Below, piece after piece: positions 8,054 to 13,079 of a DNA stretch of 64,000 nt (position 1 is the stretch's first letter; the number at the start of each line of letters is the position of its first letter). The notes beneath the pieces are model-generated. The model made no database searches. It had not been told where the DNA came from and was given only the letters and a program-made list of their open reading frames with translations. The position numbers and the translations under genes are program-made. This DNA comes from Acidobacteriota bacterium. Its GTDB lineage: Bacteria > Acidobacteriota > Blastocatellia > Pyrinomonadales > Pyrinomonadaceae. The stretch spans positions 1-64,000 of the forward strand of contig JAIVJV010000001.1 of assembly GCA_020199835.1 (NCBI GenBank). Reading direction: 5' to 3'.

Positions 8054-8926
8054 ATGCAAAAGAGAACTATGAACAACACCGACCGCACTTCGCCACAACG
8101 CGAGTTACTGAACGACGAACGCAGGCAACTACTCGATCAACTCGACGAGTCGCTGGAGACACCACTAGTGGTGCTCGGCTTCATCTGGCTCGCGATGTTC
8201 GTGTACGAATTATTGTGGGGCGAAGGCGATCTCCTTAACGCGGCGAATACCGTCATCTGGATCGTTTTCATCGGCGACTTTGTGCTCAAATTTACGATCG
8301 CGCCGGATAAATCTGATTACCTTAAAGCAAACTGGCTAACGGTTATCGCACTCGCAGTCCCCGCGCTGCGCGTTTTCCGGATCTTTCGCGTGGTGCGCGT
8401 GCTCCGTGCGGCACGCGCCGCTCGTAGCTTGCGGCTCGTCCGCGTAGCCGGTTCTTTGAATCGCGGAATGCGTGCGCTCAAGAACGCTATGAGAAGGCGT
8501 GGCGCCGGTTACCTGATCGCGCTTACCGTCGTTGTCACGCTCATCGGAGCCGCCGGGATGTACGCCTTCGAGAACGAGCAGCCCAATTCGCCGCTACGCG
8601 ACTACGGGTCGGCGCTGTGGTGGACTGCGATGGTGATGACGACGATGGGCAGCGACTATTTTCCACGCACTGCGGAAGGACGTGTGCTCTGTGTGGCTTT
8701 AGCCGTCTTCGCTTTTGCTGTCTTCGGTTATGTAACGGCGATGCTCGCGACGTTCTTTATCGGGCGCGACGCTGCGAACGAGGAGGCTGAAGTTGCCGGA
8801 GCCGAACAGATCAATGTACTACGCGATGAGATCGCGGCGTTGCGCGCGGAGGTACGTGCATTAACATCGATGCTCAATGACAACGTAGGCCATGTGGGAT
8901 GGAAAAATTCTAACCTGACTGAATGA
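8054..8926 (+). CDS. Voltage-gated-like ion channel with atypical selectivity filter
   Basis: A six-helix tetrameric-channel-type subunit of about 290 residues. An S4-like helix carries regularly spaced arginines (VFRIFRVVRVLRAARAARS), and a pore helix and filter follow. The filter reads TTMGSDYFP where potassium channels have TVGYGD. A C-terminal coiled coil after the last helix (INVLRDEIAALRAEVRALTS) probably drives assembly. The start is uncertain: ATG 8054 or ATG 8069, neither with a good ribosome site. An open frame further upstream runs into the tRNA and is not coding. Ion selectivity cannot be told from the sequence. Confidence 0.85.
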   Translation: MQKRTMNNTDRTSPQRELLNDERRQLLDQLDESLETPLVVLGFIWLAMFVYELLWGEGDLLNAANTVIWIVFIGDFVLKFTIAPDKSDYLKANWLTVIALAVPALRVFRIFRVVRVLRAARAARSLRLVRVAGSLNRGMRALKNAMRRRGAGYLIALTVVVTLIGAAGMYAFENEQPNSPLRDYGSALWWTAMVMTTMGSDYFPRTAEGRVLCVALAVFAFAVFGYVTAMLATFFIGRDAANEEAEVAGAEQINVLRDEIAALRAEVRALTSMLNDNVGHVGWKNSNLTE

Positions 8927-8937
8927 GGATAAACACA

Positions 8938-10383
8938 GTGAGAAAAGTAGTCTGTTTGGCAATCGTAACCGTGACACTTCTTTGCGCTTATGATGCAAGA
9001 GCGCAGGTGAAAAAGATTGAAATGCACATCGGGGGCTATCTCTGCGGCAATTGAGTGTACAACATTCAGAAGGCCGTGAGCCGTCTCGATTACGCACCAA
9101 AACTGAAAGAGATTGAAGTAACGGACATTAAAAAGGGGTTAGGTGTGTTTACACCTAAACCGGACAAACCCGTGTCGTTCGCGGCCTTGAAGGAAACGTT
9201 GAAGAAGGCGGGTTATACGCTTGACGCAGCCCACCTAACGGTTGCGGGAGTGTTAGCAAAAGATGAGAAAGGATGGTCCATCGTTGTTCAACCTTCAGGA
9301 CAACACTTTGCGCTGCAAGGTCCTAACGTCGATCAAGTAGTAGCGGGTGCCAGTGCCGGCGCGAGTGTTGAGATCACAGGTGATTGGAAAACGATCGGAA
9401 CGGGCAAGAGCGCACATGAAGCGATCTCGCCGATGGTCAAGACTGCTGCGAGACAGCGTGGTTATCGTCAGGCGTCATTCGGTGTGTTCGCGACCGTGAG
9501 CTACTCCCAGCCGTCTGCTGAAGAAGCCGGAGATCCGCTGACAAATCATCATGCAAGACCGCTTGCTCCGATTCGAGTCACCTCACCGGGACTGACTGTT
9601 TACAAGGGAGGCGCTGTTACTCCGCGTCTTTATCTGATCAAGCAGCATCTGGGTGATTTGGAAGTGACTCGTCAGATGATGGACGTTAGCGTTTCCTACA
9701 CACCCTCGCCGCGACTTCAGTTGGAACTCGAAATCCCGTTTGCGCGCACTGCTTTCGACAACGACACTTCTTCCGGTTCCGGATTTGGTTTAGGGAACAT
9801 TACAGCCTGGGCCAAGTATCGCTTCTTCCGGACAGTCAAGACGTACGGAGACAGGCAAGCAGCGCTTCGCGTCGGACTTGAAATGCCCACGGGCAAAAAG
9901 TCTGCTCCCACCCAGGCACAACTCAATGTACCCGAGTTCGTGAGGCAGCAACTGACACCAATCAACGGCGGATTAGCTCCGCACGTTGATCTCGCGTTTT
10001 CTCAGGCGGGAGGTCGATTCATCTTCGGCGGGAATGCGGAGGTCATCGTTCGCGCTGAACGCGACGGCTTTCGCATGGGCCACGAGCAGCGTGTCAGTAC
10101 GGATCTCGAATACGTACTTCCCAGGGATGATCGCAAACCGGGTGGAGAGTTATTTCTGATCCTCGAAACAACGTTCATTCATCGCGGAACAGGTCGTGTC
10201 AACGGACAAGCAGTGGAGGGAAGTCGTTCTACAGAATTTTACCTGTCGCCGGGACTTCAATATGCATCAAAGCCTAGGTTCGTGATCGAAGGAAGTTATC
10301 AATTCCCCGTTGTCCGCAACACCGGCCCCATCGTGCTGCGGACCGACAGCAATATCCTGCTTGGCGTGAGGTACCTGTTCTAG
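8938..10383 (+). CDS. Candidate selenoprotein: exported HMA-domain protein fused to an outer-membrane beta-barrel, in-frame UGA at residue 39
   Basis: From GTG 8938 (GAGG ahead; ATG 8923 is an alternative) the frame encodes a signal peptide of about 23 residues ending DARAQ, then VKKIEMHIGGYLCGN. It meets TGA at 9052-9054 and continues in the same frame as VYNIQKAVSRLDY for 442 more codons. The text across the TGA reads as one heavy-metal-associated (HMA) domain, in which the TGA takes the place of the second Cys of the metal site (C36-x-x-U39). About residues 220-481 look like an outer-membrane beta-barrel ending in VRYLF. The whole frame is 481 residues with Sec. Alternatives are a nonsense mutation of TGC/TGT, a sequencing error, or a separately translated 442-residue protein from GTG 9055. 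The last is unlikely, because it would lack the signal peptide and half the HMA domain. It lies 11 bases after the channel gene and 1 base overlaps tlpA. Confidence 0.6.
9064..9090 (+). promoter_or_regulatory. Candidate bacterial SECIS hairpin after UGA 9052-9054
   Basis: The hairpin starts 10 bases after the UGA. AGA 9068-9070 pairs with TCT 9084-9086 and GGC 9072-9074 pairs with GCC 9080-9082. An A-G mismatch separates these two helices. The apical loop is CGTGA at 9075-9079. Three more pairs (9064-9066 with 9088-9090, one of them G-U) extend the stem past a C-C mismatch. The loop begins 20 bases after the UGA and has G as its second base. That agrees with the general bacterial SECIS rule of an apical loop about 16-37 bases downstream with G in the first two loop positions. 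The hairpin is short and could be chance. Confidence 0.4.
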
Positions 10384-10862
10384 TGCCAAAAATGAGGGGC
10401 GTCACGGTCACTTTGTTGCTCTTGCTAATCTCCGGATTCGCAACGGCGCAGACGACGCGAGCTCCGAACCTCGATCTGCGTGATATCAACGGCCGTGCAT
10501 TTCGGTTGTCTGATTACAGAGGTAAGGTTGTGCTGCTTAACTTCTGGGCCACATGGTGTCCACCGTGCCGCGCGGAGATTCCCGAACTTATCAAATGGCA
10601 AAGAACATACCGTCAAAGATTGCAGGTTATCGGTGTAACTTACCCACCACAAACGCTCACAGAAGTGCGCCGCTTCGTTTCAGAAGCAAAGGTGAATTAT
10701 CCGGTTGCGCTTGGAACGAAACAAATGACGTCGCGCTTTACCCAGAGCGAAGCACTACCGATCACGATTGTCATTGGTAAGGATGGACGAATTCGGGATA
10801 TTATCGAGGGCATCCTGTTACCGGAGGAGTTTGAGCAGAAGATCAGACCGCTGCTCAAATAA
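10383..10862 (+). CDS. TlpA/ResA-like periplasmic thiol-disulfide oxidoreductase
   Basis: A 159-residue protein with a signal peptide or membrane anchor at about 5-22 and a thioredoxin fold of the AhpC-TSA/Redoxin type. The redox motif WCPPC is at 58-62 within NFWATWCPPCRAEIPEL. The cis-Pro region LPITIVIGKDG lies near 122-132. It starts at a GTG that overlaps the stop of the HMA/beta-barrel gene by one base; ATG 10392 is an alternative. Proteins of this family reduce periplasmic disulfides, often in cytochrome maturation or for metal-binding CxxC sites. Here the neighbours are two HMA proteins, so keeping their metal-site thiols reduced is a reasonable guess. Confidence 0.9.
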   Translation: MPKMRGVTVTLLLLLISGFATAQTTRAPNLDLRDINGRAFRLSDYRGKVVLLNFWATWCPPCRAEIPELIKWQRTYRQRLQVIGVTYPPQTLTEVRRFVSEAKVNYPVALGTKQMTSRFTQSEALPITIVIGKDGRIRDIIEGILLPEEFEQKIRPLLK

Positions 10863-10914
10863 GTGTTATACCTCGCTGTTACTCAAAATCCGTTTTTCTT
10901 AGGAGAGCTTGAAA

Positions 10915-11220
10915 ATGAAAAGTAAACGAGTTGGTTTAGCTATCGCTGCGTTTCTGATGATCGCTTTGACGTCTGTGGGCGCATTGGCGGTTACCAAGAA
11001 AGCTACTATTCGCGTTGAAGGAATGAAGTGCGCGAAGTGCTCGGGTTCGGTGGAGAAGGCGTTGAAAGCCACGGCCGGCGTGGAGAAGGTTGACATTAAT
11101 TTAGAGAAAAAAGAAGCCGTAGTTGAATATGACGACGAGAAGGTTACGGAAGCCAAGCTTCGCGAAGTCATCAACGGCACTGGCTTCAAAGTAGTAGAAG
11201 AGAAGCCGGATTCGCAATAA
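10915..11220 (+). CDS. Exported single-domain HMA (copper-chaperone-like) protein
   Basis: A protein of 101 residues: signal peptide or anchor 1-25, then one HMA domain with the metal site GMKCAKC at 36-42. The beta-alpha-beta-beta-alpha-beta pattern continues to residue 95. ATG 10915 is preferred to an in-frame TTG at 10909, because AGGAG at 10901-10905 sits 9 bases before the ATG. It binds soft metal ions (Cu(I), Hg, Zn or similar), probably in the periplasm. This second HMA protein in the cassette keeps both Cys residues, in contrast to the upstream frame. Confidence 0.92.
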   Translation: MKSKRVGLAIAAFLMIALTSVGALAVTKKATIRVEGMKCAKCSGSVEKALKATAGVEKVDINLEKKEAVVEYDDEKVTEAKLREVINGTGFKVVEEKPDSQ

Positions 11221-12353: not shown

Positions 12354-13079
12354 ATGCGCAAGGATTTGTTAGCGGCATTTTGTACGCTGTGTTTGTTTGC
12401 AACGGCTGATGCGGCTGCCGCTCAGGAAAATAAAAAACCTGAGAACAAAGACAAAAATGCAGCGGAAAAAACCGCTGATAAAGCGAAAGAAGCGGGTCAG
12501 GAGGTCACTGAGAAAGCCGGCGACGTTAAGGACAAGACGGTAAAGGGCGCTAAGAAGGCGGGTGAAAAGACAAAAGACGTCGCGGGAGACGCCGCTGATA
12601 AAGCGGGAGACGTAAAGGACGCGACCGTAAAGGGCGCCAAGAAGGCGGGCGAGAAGACAAAAGACGTCGCGGGGGACGCTGCTGACAAAGCCGGCGACGT
12701 CAAGGACACGACCGTAAAGGGTGCCAAGAAGGCGGGCGAGAAGACAAAAGACGTCGCGGGAGACGCTGCTGATAAAGCGGAAGACGTCACGGACAAGACC
12801 GTCGACACCACCAAGAAGGGCGTGAACGCAGTTGGTGACGCGGCGGGAGACGTAAAGGACAAGACGGTTGACACGACGAAGAAGGCTGTAAATGCAGCCG
12901 GGGACAAAGCCGAAGACGTAGGGGACACCACGGCTAAGGGCGTCAAGGTAGCCACAGAGGGAGCTAAAAAGATAGGTAGCGAGGCTGCGGACAAGGCCGG
13001 TGACGTCAAGGACAAAGGCGTGGAGGGCGCGAAGAAATCGGGCAACTGGTTAACCCGCGCGTTTAAGAAGATCTTCTAG
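12354..13079 (+). CDS. Exported LEA-like hydrophilic repeat protein
   Basis: A 241-residue protein with a signal peptide (1-23). The rest is almost wholly Lys/Ala/Asp/Glu/Gly/Thr in amphipathic helical repeats, resembling group 3 LEA (late embryogenesis abundant) and Asp-Lys-Ala stress proteins. Three consecutive 29-residue units starting GDVKD occupy residues 56-142, and looser units follow. Such proteins usually protect membranes or proteins during drying, salt or cold stress; that role is inferred. AGGAGG precedes the ATG. The sigma-54-type promoter at 12281 suggests conditional expression. A lipoprotein paralog lies at 31635-32189. Confidence 0.85.
   Translation: MRKDLLAAFCTLCLFATADAAAAQENKKPENKDKNAAEKTADKAKEAGQEVTEKAGDVKDKTVKGAKKAGEKTKDVAGDAADKAGDVKDATVKGAKKAGEKTKDVAGDAADKAGDVKDTTVKGAKKAGEKTKDVAGDAADKAEDVTDKTVDTTKKGVNAVGDAAGDVKDKTVDTTKKAVNAAGDKAEDVGDTTAKGVKVATEGAKKIGSEAADKAGDVKDKGVEGAKKSGNWLTRAFKKIF
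12519..12779 (+). repeat. Three tandem 87-bp coding repeats
   Basis: Three in-frame copies of an 87-base unit encode 29 residues each (GDVKDxTVKGAKKAG and onward). They are nearly identical at DNA level, so the array could expand or contract by slippage. Confidence 0.85.

Follow-up and report, generated by a model that had tools for sequence, protein, structure and literature searches.

Does a TGA in the middle of a conserved gene end it, mark it as damaged or encode selenocysteine (Sec)? The locus described here raises this question at a metal-binding site, within a 64,000-nucleotide stretch of DNA from an Acidobacteriota bacterium of the family Pyrinomonadaceae, the whole of which is referred to below as the window. 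A sequence-only reading had inferred at this place a Sec-containing, metal-binding outer-membrane protein; the present analysis supports that reading, with metal binding and outer-membrane location standing as predictions.

Reading frame and predicted architecture

The frame is interrupted once between its GTG start and its TAG stop, by the TGA at residue 39 (Table 1). The true start may instead be the in-frame ATG at 8923 (8923–8926, ATGA), which overlaps the stop of the preceding ion-channel gene. As had been claimed from the letters alone, a putative signal peptide and the beginning of an HMA domain end at the TGA and the same frame stays open beyond it, with the TGA as the second member of the HMA metal pair (C36-G-N-U39). 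The read-through protein, with position 39 written as C, matched the Pfam HMA family (PF00403) over residues 31–94 with 25.2 bits, barely over the gathering cut-off of 24.8. When only the part after the TGA was scanned against Pfam, Phenol_MetA_deg was matched and HMA was not. The barrel scored 32.8 bits against Phenol_MetA_deg (PF13557, cut-off 22), and the small beta domain (residues 95–170) matched no Pfam family at E up to 1.

Table 1. Features of the locus and what each assignment is based on, in window coordinates
Feature	Coordinates	Strand	Basis or detail
Candidate fused selenoprotein gene	8938..10383	+	GTG start, stop TAG 10381-10383, 481 residues with U39
Predicted signal peptide, residues ~1-22	8938..9003	+	by eye; helix in model
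Predicted HMA (ferredoxin-like metal-binding) domain, residues 23-94, TGA inside	9004..9219	+	PF00403; model; Foldseek
Cys36 codon TGC, first ligand position of C-x-x-U	9043..9045	+	Cys codon in 19/19
In-frame TGA, putatively read as selenocysteine 39, second ligand position	9052..9054	+	19/20 close copies
Putative SECIS hairpin AGAAGGC-CGTGA-GCCGTCT, loop 9075-9079	9068..9086	+	frozen synonymous sites; kept pairs; published rule
Small beta domain, residues 95-170	9220..9447	+	model; no Pfam family
Linker, disordered and fast-evolving, residues 171-222	9448..9603	+	pLDDT, pN/pS
Predicted outer-membrane beta-barrel, residues 224-480	9607..10377	+	Phenol_MetA_deg / COG4313 / FapF fold
TlpA/ResA-like thiol-disulfide protein	10383..10862	+	start overlaps selenoprotein stop by one base
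MerP/CopZ-like HMA protein, ordinary CAKC site	10909..11220	+	TTG 10909 or ATG 10915 start

A full-length AlphaFold2 model, built with 11 aligned homologs, had a mean pLDDT of 72.6 and a pTM of 0.51. Its low-confidence stretch (residues 168–221) corresponds to the linker, where pLDDT is mostly below 50, and the modelled barrel contains 13 strand segments. FapF and COG4313 barrels have 12 strands. These two channels share the barrel fold in Foldseek (FapF, 5o65, E 1.1e-11; COG4313 channel, 4rl8, E 5.0e-10), with only the barrel part aligning and an identity of 12–15%; titles and abstracts describe FapF as exporting an amyloid polypeptide. Modelled alone, the N-domain reached a pLDDT of 83.7 and a pTM of 0.77. 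Its Foldseek matches in the PDB include the HMA domains of CopA, ZiaA, ATP7B and MerP along with unrelated folds, none of them passing E 0.001. The models thus predict a secreted product made of a periplasmic HMA domain, a beta domain, a linker and an outer-membrane channel, in which both metal binding and outer-membrane location are predictions.

The in-frame TGA among close copies

A search of the phylum matched the protein in 35 of 396 genomes, and a search of the class with an alignment of the N-domain gave matches in 26 of 162 genomes. Close copies were taken as matches with E below 1e-50 (n = 20, in 19 genomes, the window's own included). TGA is found at the same codon in 19 of these 20, from 18 genomes, each with exactly one TGA, and the remaining copy (genome G259) has TGC; the site is therefore occupied by TGA or by Cys, in line with the original proposal. 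One of the 19 TGA copies (L087) is without the usual N-terminus, and another (L079) is cut off by the end of its contig. In a wider contig collection, 96 stretches matched one of two short peptide patterns, ten of which (L051–L060) encode a relative, all with record titles naming Pyrinomonadaceae or Acidobacteria; they belong to genomes already among the 20 close copies and were left out of that count.

Judged on these alignments, the conservation of the TGA is beyond what chance would give, and its presence in 19 of 20 close copies, with TGC in the other, argues that it is neither an error nor the mark of a pseudogene. A nonsense change in a broken gene, or a sequencing error, would have nothing in its favour beyond the stop codon itself, and we give it practically no chance. 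The 19 TGA copies are spread over 18 genomes, the hairpin downstream of the codon is frozen (see below), and pN/pS, for regions with bounds set by eye, is 0.17 in the mature part before the TGA, 0.40 in the rest of the HMA domain together with the beta domain and 0.29 in the barrel, the higher value of 0.85 belonging to the linker. These observations refute a broken or misread gene as far as sequence can.

The TGA could also be a true stop, which would leave a 38-residue secreted peptide followed by a barrel restarted at GTG 9055 or within the linker. A GTG immediately 3' of the TGA in 14 of 19 copies and start codons in the linker of 16 of 19, a few of them with a Shine-Dalgarno-like stretch, would fit such an arrangement. 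It would, however, truncate the HMA domain after its first strand and yield a restarted protein without a signal peptide. Furthermore, the GTG is replaced by GTC or ATC in five of the 19 copies, a linker start is absent in three and none is conserved, TAA or TAG never takes the place of the TGA (0/19), and the Cys homolog continues straight through the site. Termination with restart was rejected, and we regard it as highly improbable.

Equally improbable is that UGA is read in some other way, by general recoding, Trp insertion or leaky read-through, for which we found no supporting point. Among the 18 close genes with a visible stop, 14 end in TGA, three in TAG and one in TAA, hence these genomes do not use UGA as a general sense codon, and general recoding was rejected. 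Cys is the exchange partner at the site, and tRNA-Sec genes with the anticodon TCA are present. The identity of the gene product as a selenoprotein is, from the comparative sequence evidence, strongly supported.

The hairpin and the selenocysteine machinery

The candidate SECIS hairpin consists of six pairs and one A.G mismatch, closed by a 5-base loop with G in second position. The loop lies 20 bases after the UGA, as the sequence-only reading had stated; the onset, which it placed at 10 bases, is at 13, or at 11 in a 36-nt fold in which extra pairs form. The published bSECIS rule calls for a loop of 3–9 nt, a stem of 4–16 bp, a G in the first two loop positions, a distance of 16–37 nt from the UGA and an MFE of at most -7.5 (PMC13188914). 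Applied by hand, this rule fits the conserved hairpin (loop of 5 nt, six pairs and one mismatch, G second, 20 nt, MFE -9.7 over 44 nt). Part of the -9.7 is owed to a separate upstream pairing and the 36-nt hairpin reaches only -6.3, against the -7.5 of the rule. Folding energy was also not unusual relative to shuffled sequences (z -0.68) and gave nothing as proof of a SECIS element; the case for the hairpin is a comparative one, drawn from the aligned copies.

Codon constraint was measured on 19 aligned genes with 345 scored columns. Leaving out the Sec column, the amino acid is invariant and encodable by more than one codon at 96 columns, and a single codon is used in all 19 genes at only three of them, codons +5, +6 and +10 after the TGA. 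Codons +5 to +10 are nearly frozen synonymously. The mean synonymous codon difference is 0.547 overall and 0.122 in the segment of codons +4 to +10, compared with 0.383 in the lowest segment clear of +1 to +12, and none of 2000 shuffles had any segment as low as 0.122.

The hairpin itself was compared in 21 sequences, comprising the 19 TGA copies, the Cys homolog and a distant UxxU relative (L032). All six pairs are possible, and the second loop base is G, in each of the 21. Changes in the pairs are confined to L032, which keeps the hairpin with one double change (A-T to G-C), one G-C replaced by G-T and the A.G mismatch repaired to C-G. As most pairs are invariant in the other 20 sequences, the full pairing is best read as mostly plain conservation, with covariation resting on this one distant sequence. 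Taken with the conservation of the codon, the hairpin makes it very likely, in our assessment, that the UGA would be decoded as Sec by SelB, directed by this element.

Of the Sec genes expected in the host, selA (547 bits), selD (356 bits, itself containing an in-frame TGA, within SCSGU) and tRNA-Sec (four different genes, anticodon TCA) were recovered, and selB was not found by family search in the window's 83%-complete assembly. Among the 18 genomes with the TGA form, selB scored over the cut-off in 14 and not over it in four (the window's own, G000, and G484, G438 and G501), tRNA-Sec was seen in 17 (not in G490), and each genome shows at least one of the two. Throughout the class, selB was over the cut-off in 132 of 162 genomes and tRNA-Sec was present in 145 of 162, hence co-occurrence of the gene with the Sec machinery was not counted as proof.

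With the assembly 83% complete, a gap is the likeliest reason for the missing selB. Comparison of the 18-kb selB region of a sister genome (G197) with the window's assembly at the DNA level gave five short matches, none of them over selB, and a gene comparison of one candidate region revealed no clear counterpart of the sister's region in that assembly. A glycosyltransferase-like gene of 374 aa two places from the sister's selB, which we take to be BshA, had 15 matches in the window's assembly, the best-scoring of them 33% identical. These look like paralogs only, and the sister's selB region seems to be absent from the assembly. We conclude that selB is probably missing through an assembly gap; a true loss in the window's organism is conceivable.

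The four tRNA-Sec genes of the window's genome are located at C15:157847, C6:98652, C6:100783 and C11:35942, and those on C6 and C11 are close to repeated sets of genes, sigma-factor genes among them, that resemble one another. A single tRNA-Sec gene is seen in most of the 145 class genomes that have any.

Relatives, gene neighbourhood and putative function

Separate HMA proteins in the phylum carry UxxU in L036, L037, L039, L042, L043, L082 and L083, as does the shorter protein L032. One relative has CxxU (L084), two have UxxC (L035, L050), and CxxC was observed in L027, L030, L033, the second gene of L035, L038, L041 and L080. Several of the separate HMA proteins match well beyond the HMA domain in the phylum search. 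A second type of hairpin, CGCC-TGGA[AT]-GGCG, was detected in all eight stand-alone UxxU/CxxU relatives examined (L036, L037, L039, L042, L043, L082, L083 and L084, L032 not being among them); its start is 30 bases on, counted from the first base of the second codon. Neighbouring genes were scanned in three relatives: L037 and L035 each adjoin a MerR gene as well as a PF13557 barrel, and L043 adjoins a redoxin. At the L035 locus (genome G377), a UxxC and a CxxC HMA gene lie close to each other, together with the MerR and barrel genes.

The Cys homolog in G259 (L024/L156) keeps the hairpin sequence, which may be a remnant from an earlier Sec codon; part of the likeness is explained by shared amino acids. 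This copy may have been caught shortly after a change from Sec to Cys. Trees (a first without L032, and a second of a reduced set of 22 rows that includes it) were too poorly resolved to give the direction of Cys/Sec change. HMA, barrel and TlpA are three neighbouring, separate genes in G259, and the barrel is 49% identical to that of the window, with no Pfam match at E up to 0.01. Given that the HMA and barrel genes are separate neighbours there, the gene in the window appears to be a fusion of the two.

The next gene in the window had been named as a thiol-redox TlpA protein, correctly: its product is TlpA/ResA-like (Table 1). In 16 of 17 testable fused loci, the window's included, a TlpA-like gene lies downstream, its start no more than 137 bases from the stop. 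Loci were testable where at least 238 bases are left after the stop (L144 and L154 end too soon), and L151 is the sole testable locus without TlpA. The MerP-like HMA gene comes next in the window, and two further loci have the same order. In four of 11 loci (L051, L055, L058, L059), a conserved Cys-rich protein of 166–196 aa is encoded upstream of the selenoprotein gene, and the two copies scanned (L058, L059) had no Pfam match at E up to 0.01. Further downstream in the window, positions 12354–13079 encode a repetitive Lys/Ala-rich protein with AADKAGDVKD-type repeats and, by eye, a signal-peptide-like start.

From these domains and neighbours, we infer that soft-metal binding by a Cys-Sec pair beside an outer-membrane channel is the likeliest function. 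A single secreted selenoprotein would use Sec as the second metal ligand of its HMA domain, with the beta domain and the flexible linker tethering this site to the outer-membrane channel. Cys36 and Sec39 would grip a soft metal or metalloid ion, e.g. Cu(I), Hg(II) or Ag(I), at the channel mouth. The TlpA-like product of the next gene would keep Cys36 and Sec39 reduced, and in loci that have a MerP-like protein, this would exchange the ion with the Cys36/Sec39 site. We consider this explanation as a whole to be probable.

The same selenoprotein might instead carry no metal, with Cys36 and Sec39 forming a redox pair that exchanges with TlpA. The redoxin gene that follows 16 of 17 testable fused loci would suit this role, as would the many CxxU and UxxC selenoproteins that belong to thiol-redox families in the table of a 2026 review (PMC13188914). 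The site, however, is an HMA metal loop, relatives score for CopZ/MerP-like models (though below the cut-off), and two relatives adjoin MerR genes. In our judgement UxxU would also be an unusual redox pair, with one redoxin family of this type in the review's table (PMC13188914). We regard a purely redox role as unlikely, and continue with metal binding as the preferred function.

Sec in proteins of this kind has precedents. MerP-like Sec proteins had been mentioned in the sequence-only reading as suggested from metagenomes, correctly: "Mercuric transport protein MerP" is listed with two selenoproteins in the GOS paper (PMC2398784), and NCBIfam contains NF041115 (UxxU_metal_bind) and NF045683 (MerT_CopZ_Se). 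The 2026 review covers NF041115 (metal-binding, UxxU), a mercuric transport protein with Sec and a selenoprotein barrel of the outer membrane (MtrB/PioB), and its main text does not name PF13557 or PF00403 (PMC13188914); the same kinds of selenoprotein appear in a 2022 review (PMC9312934).

NF041115, earlier named "putative mercuric reductase", resembles the window's protein in having an HMA-like domain with Sec at the Cys positions of the metal site. It is a 74-position model with UxxU and two Sec in the table of the 2026 review, whereas the window's protein has CxxU, a second domain and a barrel, and scores 14.6 bits against a curated cut-off of 95. MerP (TIGR02052) and CopZ share with the window's protein the HMA fold and two metal residues spaced by two; the window's protein differs in carrying Sec as the second of these residues and in its two extra domains, and its score against TIGR02052 is 17.7 bits (curated cut-off 92.55). 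NF045683 is, by its title, a selenoprotein in which a CopZ-like part is fused to a transport part, as in the window's protein. The fusion partner differs, however, being MerT-like, an inner-membrane protein, in NF045683 and an outer-membrane barrel in the window; no match to this model was found at E up to 1 (curated cut-off 375 bits). The GSU2204 family (NF041027, MtrB/PioB) is likewise an outer-membrane barrel selenoprotein in the review's table, but represents another barrel family, to which the window's protein has no match at E up to 1. For an ortholog (L022), a scan of NCBIfam at E up to 0.001 gave no match.

Sec in HMA domains is therefore already known (NF041115, NF045683); the window's family misses both models and is fused to an outer-membrane channel. 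A literature search, with many journals outside its coverage, brought up no description that we recognised of a fusion between a Sec-containing HMA domain and an outer-membrane barrel. Most Sec sites of known function serve in redox reactions or in the coordination of catalytic metals, according to the 2026 review (PMC13188914) and the Sargasso Sea paper. Here, Sec probably serves as a ligand in metal transport, and homologs show natural exchanges of Cys and Sec at both ligand positions. This set of homologs offers a ready comparison of what selenium adds to soft-metal binding, and the fusion to a channel suggests that metal is handled at the outer membrane.

A broader and more tentative proposal, to which we give slightly less than even chances, is that an HMA family of the Acidobacteriota swaps Cys and Sec at both ligand positions (CC, CU, UC, UU) and that one of its branches fused the Sec site to an outer-membrane channel. 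The product would be a selenium-tipped metal gate, kept reduced by the TlpA of its operon. A standard list of open reading frames splits the gene at the TGA, as seen in this window, hence genes of this kind probably go unseen or carry wrong names in databases.
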